Shown here piece by piece: positions 6,719-9,400 of a stretch of DNA of 21,576 bases (position 1 is its first letter; the number at the start of each line of letters is the position of its first letter). The stretch comes from a virus, in the IMG/VR virus record IMGVR_UViG_3300030328_002969, positions 1-21,576 of that record. The stretch is one strand, 5' to 3'. The notes under the pieces are model-generated. The model had not been told where the DNA came from. It ran no database searches and worked only from the letters and a program-made list of their open reading frames with translations. The position numbers were made by a program, and so were the translations under genes.

Positions 6719-7156
6719 ATGCCTACCTACAACTATTTAAAATATTGGCGAGTAGTCCGATATTGGGCAAAGGCTAAATATGGTTTAACTACACCAGATT
6801 TAGATATGCTGTTTTTCCTCTACAGCGAAGAGTACTTTAACAAAACTAAGTTCAAAGAATATGAAGAAGTGATGTCTTGGGATATAAATCGGTTTAACTC
6901 TTTACTTAGAGATGGATGGATACATGTGTGGAGGAGGCGTAAAGGAAAACATGCCACTCTTTATGAATTAACTTATAAAGCTAAAATGGCTGTAAATACT
7001 ATATATAAAAAATTAAATGGAGATGAAATTGGAGAACACCCTGCGGTTAACCCTTTATTTAAAGTAAATGTTAGCTATATGGATAAAGTTTATAGACAGA
7101 AAATTGTAGAGATGAATAAATTTATAAAACAACAACGACATCTCTCTCTTGAATAA
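6719..7156 (+). CDS. MarR-like winged-helix protein
   Basis: A 145-residue protein resembling a winged helix-turn-helix of MarR type: helices at about residues 5-20 (LKYWRVVRYWAKAKYGL) and 26-40 (DLDMLFFLYSEEYF), a recognition-like region (MSWDINRFNSLLRDGWIHVW), and a basic wing (RRRKGKHATLYELTYKAK). A C-terminal helical part follows and could dimerise. It is the only rightward gene between 1 and 9820. It starts between two divergent promoters and ends 35 bases inside groES on the other strand, so it may regulate the leftward genes or itself. The fold call is from pattern; the target is inference. Confidence 0.65.
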   Translation: MPTYNYLKYWRVVRYWAKAKYGLTTPDLDMLFFLYSEEYFNKTKFKEYEEVMSWDINRFNSLLRDGWIHVWRRRKGKHATLYELTYKAKMAVNTIYKKLNGDEIGEHPAVNPLFKVNVSYMDKVYRQKIVEMNKFIKQQRHLSLE

Positions 7157-7379
7157 TAGTAACTTGTTCGTTTTCTATAAGCATTGTATGACCTGCATTA
7201 CGATCATAATAAACTAAGTCTTTTTCTTTTATAACCTGCACATCACTCCCAGGTTTTATTATTCTTCCTTTTTTGTACCTAAACTCATCTACATCTTGAG
7301 CGGATAATAAGATTCCTGACTTTGTTTTTAATTCTTCTTCTATAGGGGTTAGGGCTATATATTTTCCAATTGGTTGCAT
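7122..7379 (-). CDS. groES: GroES co-chaperonin
   Basis: An 85-residue GroES/Cpn10 protein, a little shorter than the usual 95-100. The N-terminus (MQPIGKYIALTPIEEE) matches the first strand of the family. The mobile loop (KTKSGILLSAQDVDEFRYKKGRI) contains the hydrophobic tripeptide ILL, equivalent to the IVL with which GroES binds GroEL. The C-terminal strands (QVTIIQERDVVVVL) close the barrel. The heptameric lid would cap the phage GroEL encoded just upstream. It is the last gene of the chaperonin operon, 1 base after the 45-codon ORF. Its 3' end overlaps the winged-helix gene on the other strand. No terminator was seen. Confidence 0.9.
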   Translation of the reverse strand: MQPIGKYIALTPIEEELKTKSGILLSAQDVDEFRYKKGRIIKPGSDVQVIKEKDLVYYDRNAGHTMLIENEQVTIIQERDVVVVL

Positions 7380-7380
7380 A

Positions 7381-7518
7381 TTAGTCGTTTTCTTTAAAGA
7401 TTGCGTAAACTTTTACTTTGCCTGTACTGGCTATTAATTTCTTAGTAGCTTTTTCAATTTTTTCTTCAGACTGAGGAAAGTATTTAGGGTTTTTAGAATT
7501 AAGCTTCCTTTTCTTCAT
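7381..7518 (-). CDS. 45-codon ORF between groEL and groES
   Basis: A leftward frame with ATG at 7516-7518, inside the last codons of groEL in another frame (20-base overlap), and TAA at 7381-7383, one base before the groES ATG. The protein begins MKKRKLNSKNPKYFPQSEEK and continues with a helix (IEKATKKL) and a strand-like end (KVKVYAIFKEND). It is basic at the start. It fills the groEL-groES gap almost exactly, with overlap on one side and a 1-base gap on the other, which supports translation. I know no family. It might tune the chaperonin or only keep the two genes translationally coupled. Confidence 0.6.
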   Translation of the reverse strand: MKKRKLNSKNPKYFPQSEEKIEKATKKLIASTGKVKVYAIFKEND

Positions 7519-9151
7519 GTTTTCTTGCGTGTGTTACTATAGCGTTAGTACTTAAGATTGTGGTAGCTACGCTAATTGCGTTAATCAATGCATGTCGTGT
7601 AACTTTGACAGGATCAATAACCCCCATCTTCAGCATATCTCCATATTTTTCATTCTTTACATCATATCCTAAATTGTCAGCCTTAAATGTTTTTTCGTCT
7701 ATATCTTCAAAAGACATAATCTTTCGCACATCCAGTCCTGCATTTATTAGTATTTGATGGAGAGGAGCTTTTAAAGAATCAGACAAAATAGATAAAGCTG
7801 CTTCTTGGTTTTTATCTACATTAGCATTTGCTTCTTGCGAACACCCACACTCATCCCAAAATTCATCAGACAAATCGTGTAGTGCTACTCCTCCTCCTGA
7901 AACAATGCCTTCTTGTAAGGCACTGCGCACCGCGCATACCGAGTCATCGACTCGGTCAAATTTTTCTTTTTGCTCTACATCAGAGTTTCCTCCCACGTAT
8001 ATACACCCGATTCCTCCAGCTAAGCTGGCCACTCGTTCATTTATAAAGTTTTTTGATACGGGGTCTTTAGTATTTTCTTGTTGCTCCTTTAATTCTACTA
8101 TACGTTGTTTTATTTCCTGACTAATTTCTCCTTCTTTTATTACAACAGTGGAGTCTTGCCCTACAATAATCTTGTCGGCTCTTCCTAAATCATGAGGAGT
8201 CATAAGGCTTAGATCATCTCCAGTCTTTTCAGAATAATATTTAGCTCCTACAGCTAATGCTATGTCCTGCATTAACTCGTGTTGTTTGTATCCAAATTGA
8301 GGAGGTAGAATATTACAGAACTTCAGTCCGTTTCTTACTACATTAGCAGCAAGTGTGTTTATAACATTAGTAGTACATGTCCCTATTATTAATAACTTCT
8401 CTCCTTTATTGATAATATGTTTTAATATATTTTCTAACTGCAGTATATTACTTATCTCACTATCACATACTAAGATGTTCACATCCTCCATAATACATTC
8501 ATCCTTTTTTTGATTATTAATAAATAGATTAGAAGTATAACCTCTATTTATTTTAATCCCGTTAGTTATCTCTGCATAAGTCTCGGCTGTTTGAGATCGT
8601 TCAACAGTCACCACTCCATCTTTTCCTACCTTCTTATATGCATCGGCTATAATTTTTCCTACCGCCTTGTCATTATTAGCTGAGATTGTAGCTACATCTA
8701 ACAGCTTTCTTTTAGAAATTTTTTGGGATTGACTTTTAAGCTCCTCTACAATCTTTTCGGTATAATGATTAATATACCTGACTACTTCAGTTATATTATG
8801 TTTAGGGGTGATGTATTTTTCTCCCGCCATAATAACAGCTTCAGTCAAGACAATAGCTGTAGTTGTTCCATCACCTGCCGAGTTAGCTGTTCTATTAGCT
8901 GCATCTTTCATCATCTGTATTGCAAGATTCTCCACTGGATCGATTAACTCTATTGCTCGTGCAACAGTCACACCGTCTTTAGTAATAGTAATATTGTTTG
9001 TGTGTTGAGGAGATTCTATTAGCACTGTTTTTCCTCGCGGACCTAATGTAGATTTAACAGCTTTTGATATTGTAGTTATTCCTTTGATTAGTTTTTTTCT
9101 TCCTTCATCATCGAAACAAATGTCTTTAGGAATGTATCCCGAATTGCTCAT
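7499..9151 (-). CDS. groEL: GroEL chaperonin, phage-type
   Basis: A 550-residue full-length group I chaperonin. ATP-site motifs are intact: TLGPRGK (35-41), TKDGVTVA with D59 (57-64), GDGTTT with D94 (93-98), the D403 equivalent of the E. coli hydrolysis residue D398 (DRVDDSVCAVR), and EGIVSGGGVAL (414-424). The apical domain (about 190-375) keeps RGY..(N)LFIN and hydrophobic helices for substrate and GroES binding. Two oddities: the almost invariant KAPGFGDRRK is PPQFGYKQH here (about 283-291), and the C-terminus ends HARKHEEKEA without the Gly-Met tail. First in an operon with a small ORF and groES; it probably folds virion or replication proteins in the host cytoplasm. Confidence 0.95.
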   Translation of the reverse strand: MSNSGYIPKDICFDDEGRKKLIKGITTISKAVKSTLGPRGKTVLIESPQHTNNITITKDGVTVARAIELIDPVENLAIQMMKDAANRTANSAGDGTTTAIVLTEAVIMAGEKYITPKHNITEVVRYINHYTEKIVEELKSQSQKISKRKLLDVATISANNDKAVGKIIADAYKKVGKDGVVTVERSQTAETYAEITNGIKINRGYTSNLFINNQKKDECIMEDVNILVCDSEISNILQLENILKHIINKGEKLLIIGTCTTNVINTLAANVVRNGLKFCNILPPQFGYKQHELMQDIALAVGAKYYSEKTGDDLSLMTPHDLGRADKIIVGQDSTVVIKEGEISQEIKQRIVELKEQQENTKDPVSKNFINERVASLAGGIGCIYVGGNSDVEQKEKFDRVDDSVCAVRSALQEGIVSGGGVALHDLSDEFWDECGCSQEANANVDKNQEAALSILSDSLKAPLHQILINAGLDVRKIMSFEDIDEKTFKADNLGYDVKNEKYGDMLKMGVIDPVKVTRHALINAISVATTILSTNAIVTHARKHEEKEA

Positions 9152-9175
9152 AGTATAGTGAATTTAATTAAGAAG

Positions 9176-9183
9176 CAAATATA
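9176..9183 (-). promoter_or_regulatory. -7 element of the groEL operon
   Basis: On the minus strand these bases read TATATTTG, a perfect TAnnTTTG match, 24 bases before the groEL ATG. No strong -33 TTG is visible; TGTTT at 9197-9201 is closer than expected. An inverted relative of the TCAACACTAA repeat lies about 26 bases upstream (9209-9223), well placed for an activator or repressor. Confidence 0.5.
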
Positions 9184-9208: not shown

Positions 9209-9400
9209 TTAAGTGTTGGTTTTTATAGCTACTTATTAAAATATATATCCGTTTGACTCTCTCGGTTTTATTTTTTTATTTTTTTTAGTAGTAAAATCAA
9301 CACTAATTAATAATTATTAATATAAAGTATTATATTTCAATAACTTATAGTAAATAAAATCAACACTAAATCAACACTAATATAACAATATAGTGTTAAT
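9209..9400. repeat. TCAACACTAA repeat cluster, iteron or operator candidate
   Basis: Three exact copies of TCAACACTAA lie at 9297-9306, 9360-9369 and 9371-9380; the last two start 11 bases apart, about one helical turn. An inverted copy with one mismatch (ATTAACACTA on the minus strand) lies at 9391-9400, and a diverged inverted copy (CAACACTTAA) within 9209-9223. Between copies one and two is a very AT-rich stretch (about 9304-9359), and long T runs precede them. This is the content of most of the 316-base gap between groEL and the 79-residue gene. Repeats plus AT-rich DNA fit a replication origin with iterons, or operators for the groEL promoter. Function is inference. Confidence 0.55.

Follow-up and report, generated by a model that had tools for sequence, protein, structure and literature searches.

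The groEL-first order of a chaperonin block is an inherited trait in an already known kind of aquatic phages

Why does a phage genome encode both groEL and groES, with groEL first where bacteria have it second, and with a small gene between them? The question is raised by a viral DNA stretch of 21,576 nucleotides (here called the window), taken from a virus record of 43,667 bases (IMGVR_UViG_3300030328_002969, our G000), of which it makes up the first half. An earlier note on this DNA had described the order groEL, 45-codon ORF, groES, and every coordinate in it was right. The features of the locus are the following:

6719..7156, plus strand: candidate regulator of the MarR-like winged-helix type, 145 aa (E=3e-5 with phrog_12817, a 'transcriptional regulator')
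7122..7379, minus strand: groES-like co-chaperonin, 85 aa, with the mobile loop SGILL (Pfam Cpn10, phrog_3188)
7381..7518, minus strand: basic 45-aa ORF (13 K/R, 5 D/E) between groEL and groES, a probable gene judged by homologues and codon differences
7499..9151, minus strand: groEL-like group I chaperonin, 550 aa (Pfam, PHROGs, conserved ATPase residues, AlphaFold model)
9159..9170, minus strand: TAATTAAATTCA, an A/T-rich element in the leader, which separates the groEL start from the -7 box
9176..9183, minus strand: TATATTTG, a -7 promoter box of the Bacteroidota type, 25 nt ahead of groEL

The three minus-strand genes are tightly packed. The small ORF overlaps the end of groEL by 20 nt and its stop lies 1 nt before groES; because of this, the three genes appear to share a transcript and to be translated in a coupled manner. 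Both chaperonin genes are full length, as had been stated. GroEL scored 203 bits with Pfam Cpn60_TCP1 over its full length (cut-off 34.3) and 460 bits with the PHROGs chaperonin family phrog_5725, and GroES reached 36.4 bits with Pfam Cpn10 (cut-off 21.1). An AlphaFold model of GroEL (pLDDT 80.9) matched group I GroEL/Hsp60 structures. The GroES model (pLDDT 89.8) was searched with Foldseek and matched GroES and Hsp10, which have a beta-barrel fold; the match to gp31 was weaker. The equivalents of the E. coli GroEL ATPase residues D52, D87 and D398 are all present in the window protein, and the description of the pair as apparently active holds at the sequence level. D52, D87, the GDGTTT loop and D398 were found in 19/19 window-type GroEL sequences.

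The gene order was then compared between phages and bacteria. For the viral set, a protein search of viral contigs was used, and the best 80 of 379 related stretches were taken together with the phage ctfjg026 (81 loci). The bacterial set consisted of the best 80 matches listed from a genome scan. groES was located downstream of groEL on the same strand in all 80 scorable window-type loci; the 81st, a short contig without detected groES, was left unscored. Bacteria had been said to carry groES first, and this was confirmed in 79/79 testable loci among the best 80 listed, one locus being truncated. L140, a candidate for a bacterial groEL-first locus, was ruled out as an overlapping-start artefact. 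The Elemovirus-type loci were groEL-first in 13/13 scorable cases. Immutovirus had groES first in 75/75 loci. A mixed set around Calle contained both orders, and GroES was undetectable in many of its members. A third phage clade (the L213-type viral contigs, L210-L242) has groEL, groES and a MarR-like gene on one strand. The arrangement had been presented as rare and special to this phage, a view that the counts do not support. In phages with GroEL identities as low as 54%, the pair is still found as a unit with both genes intact.

In a 92-row GroEL tree, the groEL-first loci formed one branch of window type, Elemovirus type and L213 type (SH-aLRT 88). The same three-group clade was recovered in a 62-row tree (SH-aLRT 92); both support values are below the threshold of 95. 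Thus, the phage GroEL groups with two other phage clades, and the gene order on the tree is explained by two changes. A constraint that joined window-type GroEL with Bacteroidota GroEL was rejected (AU p=0.009). Based on the order counts, the three-group branch, the two changes and this rejection, we conclude that the groEL-first order is an inherited phage trait and not a rearranged host operon. The 2017 survey by Marine and colleagues is said to have found viral GroEL divergent from the bacterial protein. One isolated locus outside the main clade, L234, also has the order groEL-groES, which suggests a second origin.

That the phage acquired a host operon by a simple and fairly recent transfer and then rearranged it is very improbable. 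Such a transfer would agree with the clearly bacterial type of GroEL and GroES, and other phages have taken host copies: the tree places the GroEL of Vibrio phage VB_VaC_TDDLMA next to that of E. coli, and this protein is likely a recent host capture. However, the nearest cellular GroEL is about 40% identical to the phage protein among the bacterial matches listed, none of the best 80 bacterial loci listed has the order groEL-groES, and the AU result points the same way. Recent capture was rejected on these grounds, in agreement with the earlier note, which had not read the locus as simple transfer.

The main finding is already known in kind, because three sources precede it. Phages carrying both GroEL and GroES are mentioned in PMC7185714. 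Both subunits were reported in phages of the virioplankton, as in the window phage (Marine et al. 2017, ISME J 11:2479, as reflected in citing papers), and the conclusion of Marine et al. that viral groEL/groES order is tied to GroEL phylogeny is relayed in PMC9611531. The GenBank records of Elemovirus annotate groEL and then groES. Phages with both genes had been called exceptional, which is only partly right; Elemovirus, Immutovirus and Callevirus carry both as well. The groEL-first chaperonin is an old, fixed trait of a known aquatic phage type and no oddity.

Elemovirus (Flavobacterium phages vB_FspP_elemoA-F, podoviruses of about 60 kb) has groEL, groES immediately behind it and a convergent MarR-like gene, in the order seen in the window. 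The window locus shows the features of this module: groEL before groES on one strand, and a MarR-like gene adjoining groES. Elemovirus GroEL is 38% identical to the window protein, and the chaperonin block and the structural genes of Elemovirus are on different strands, unlike in the window. In the Elemovirus protein (L166 3992-5554 and relatives) the ATP loop GDGTTT is changed to GDSTTC, in one of three to GDATTC; this change may alter its ATPase. Immutovirus and Callevirus (the phi38:1 group) are flavobacterial phages that also carry both proteins, but they have the bacterial order groES-groEL, with an ORF between the genes in Calle, and no linked regulator adjoins the pair. Phages EL, OBP and AR9 encode a GroEL-like protein, as the window does, with no GroES partner known. 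The GroEL of phage EL is about 22% identical to GroEL, and the window protein is much closer to group I.

Only L003, L013, L014, L030, L039 and L040 have a homologue of the 45-aa ORF in the corresponding slot. It is thus present in 7 of about 81 loci (best 80 of 379 plus ctfjg026). Compared with L003, it differs at 6, 2 and 10 sites at codon positions 1, 2 and 3, with 7 synonymous and 8 nonsynonymous codons. Position 2 carries the fewest differences, a weak sign in favour of coding, and the ORF is probably a real gene. The gap between groEL and groES in window-type loci has a median of 12 nt and is often -4 or +3, and other loci of this type contain one to several small ORFs in it. A 185-aa ORF occupies the slot in L047, L049-L052 and L066. 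We take its product to be a probable 2-oxoglutarate/Fe(II) oxygenase, and the slot is therefore an insertion site for unrelated genes. The conserved ends of the 45-aa ORF and its homologous family in one slot might suggest that its product serves the machine as a third functional subunit or as an adaptor. Such a role is highly unlikely, given the few loci that have the ORF and the many in which groEL and groES are in direct contact (-4 to +3 nt) or flank unrelated ORFs. A function as essential adaptor was ruled out by its absence from most relatives. The ORF is optional cargo that was gained and lost.

An own promoter had been proposed for the block, and the comparison supports it. Using the Bacteroidota -7 consensus TAnnTTTG, a box was detected at comparable distance before groEL in 60/61 distinct window-type loci, versus 8% in shuffles. 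The box alone occurs at chance density across the window, so its weight comes from the conserved position. TATATTTG also precedes groEL in Elemovirus. The box together with the leader AA[TA]T[TC]AAAT was present in 46/78 groEL upstream regions versus 5/2085 other ORFs of the same loci, a ratio that serves as a guide only because many control ORFs are spurious. The window's own leader copy has one mismatch to this motif. The motif was not enriched over the window as a whole and is specific only relative to the other ORFs of the same loci. It is possibly an operator or a ribosome-loading leader. Further upstream of the groEL promoter, AATCAACACTAA repeats occur at 9292-9382 in an AT-rich region that separates the minus-strand block from plus-strand genes. 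These repeats are possible operators or replication iterons.

The MarR-like gene is convergent (tail to tail) with groES and overlaps it by 35 nt. A homologue was found beside groES in 80/80 window-type loci (best 80 of 379 set) and in 13/13 Elemovirus-type loci, in all cases convergent. In 14 L213-type loci it lies on the same strand, and in 10/14 it overlaps groES by 4 nt in an operon-like manner. As a control, the best 80 bacterial loci listed and 80 Immutovirus loci were searched, and the gene was found in 0/160. A reciprocal search that started from the regulator revealed groES as its neighbour in 45/45 testable loci. Calle and phi38:1 have a partial homologue, which in Calle is far from the chaperonins. 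The MarR-like gene thus belongs to the chaperonin module, and it may regulate it. Its label rests on PHROGs and weak hints, since Pfam MarR (E=0.55) and solved structures of SarA/Rot (E=0.08) gave no weighty match.

We then compared lid and ring in detail. In the window GroES, 8-9 residues of the roof loop are missing in a profile comparison with solved GroES, and the model has no strands at residues 44-54, the roof position. T4 gp31 likewise lacks the roof loops; this is thought to help admit and fold the large 56-kDa capsid protein gp23 (PMC6318259). A missing roof therefore neither defines nor excludes the Cpn10/GroES family. In a structural match, gp31 and the window GroES are 13% identical; gp31 caps only host GroEL and has a longer mobile loop. 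The window does not hold such a gp31-type system, a co-chaperonin without phage GroEL, as its phage GroEL lies adjacent. In the Flavobacterium phage MaF61 (L173), 2424-2987 encodes a 187-aa 'putative chaperonin' before groEL, which resembles two fused Cpn10 domains.

The end of the GroES mobile loop is retained and SGLLL-like, with the pattern G-L/I-hydrophobic-hydrophobic. On the GroEL side, the apical groove is changed in 18/18 window-type relatives: Y203 to L/M, L234 to E, E238 to K, and both V263 and V264 to A. Hydrophobicity is thereby reduced at Y203, V263 and V264, and L234 is turned to E. The apical hydrophobic positions Y199, F204 and L237 are unchanged and L259 is conservative (I); R197 is retained and E386 is mostly D. 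As the groove changes occur together with such a mobile loop end, the residues suggest that phage GroEL and GroES are adapted to each other. L234E, V263A and V264A could also be read as weaker substrate binding. At the ring-ring contact, R452 is R in 1/18 window-type relatives versus 24/25 bacteria. The R452-E461 contact is unconserved and S463 and V464 are also largely lost; these losses hint at weak ring pairing and are common to other phage groups too. The GGM tail was absent from window-type GroEL in the residue comparison. In the literature covered, which includes Marine et al. 2017 through citing papers only, we found no description of the conserved -7 box before groEL, the roofless GroES, a GroEL with altered groove and without GGM tail and R452-E461 contact, or the linkage of the MarR-like gene to groES.

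Taken as a whole, the block is probably a group I chaperonin operon inherited within phages, whose matched GroEL/GroES pair would fold phage proteins. The phage would make the GroEL ring subunit and the matching GroES lid from its own Bacteroidota-type promoter, and ATP-driven cycles of the pair would fold phage proteins during infection. We infer that GroEL and GroES form a working pair and that it serves virion proteins; the most likely clients would be virion proteins whose size or abundance exceeds what the host machine can handle. A client that the host system folds poorly, as the earlier note had suggested, is plausible. The order groEL-then-groES would go back to a single origin, or very few, in an old phage lineage whose descendants have retained it. 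Small genes would enter between the two without breaking either, and the neighbouring MarR-like gene, as part of the module, may regulate the block.

Other readings of the same residues and neighbours are less convincing. It is unlikely that the phage GroES acts as a gp31-like lid on host GroEL and the phage GroEL works with host GroES. The precedent of gp31 (PMC6318259) speaks for this, as do the ATPase residues and the mobile loop, which are needed for generic partners; against it, groEL and groES occur together in every scorable locus, and the lid-binding groove carries changes at invariant positions that go along with a specialised lid. A chaperonin that mainly protects against stress or host defence, replacing disabled or monitored host chaperones instead of folding virions, is quite improbable. 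The host-type promoter, separate from the structural genes, would fit such a role, but no defence or stress signal was seen nearby, and the proposed need to work while host GroEL is inhibited found no support. Rather unlikely, too, is an orthogonal and self-regulating chaperonin, in which neither the roofless lid nor the altered GroEL, possibly a single ring, would pair with its host counterpart, and the MarR-like gene would set expression by acting on the conserved element between the -7 box and groEL. If this were true, the supply of folding capacity would be controlled by that capacity itself, in the way known from HrcA in some bacteria.

The inherited operon would mean that phages have handed down a complete folding machine over long periods, in a line distinct from that of their hosts, and that such machines are found in 60-kb podovirus-like phages and not in jumbo phages alone. 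Since the cultivated Elemovirus has the same module, orthogonality, ring state, client and regulation are testable in a Flavobacterium host.

The window phage is podovirus-like. Its closest annotated relative is Podoviridae sp. ctfjg026 (MW202828), a circular, complete 60.9-kb genome from Manatee Spring, with identities of 54% in GroEL, 52% in GroES, 51% in the regulator, 67% in the primase and 61% in the helicase. The chaperonin block of ctfjg026 has the gene order and orientation of the window but, unlike it, lacks the small ORF. Elemovirus, cultivated podoviruses of Flavobacterium sp. BAL314, is more distant kin (primase 42% over 40% of its length). From the relatives and the promoter type, the host is probably a member of the Bacteroidota, and a flavobacterial host is plausible. 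The record encodes a Peptidase M15 endolysin and a BT4734-type primase. No portal or terminase was recognised in its 43,667 bases, and it is therefore probably a genome fragment.

Two further observations were made. The Vibrio phage VB_VaC_TDDLMA (L172) has a GroEL gene flanked by those for tail sheath and tail tube, and no GroES was found near it. A 3053-aa protein of the record (G000 28753-37914; L083:7177-16338, minus strand) has an N6_N4 DNA methyltransferase domain mid-protein and a distant likeness to a giant structural protein of Elemovirus, and it is perhaps an injected multi-domain protein.
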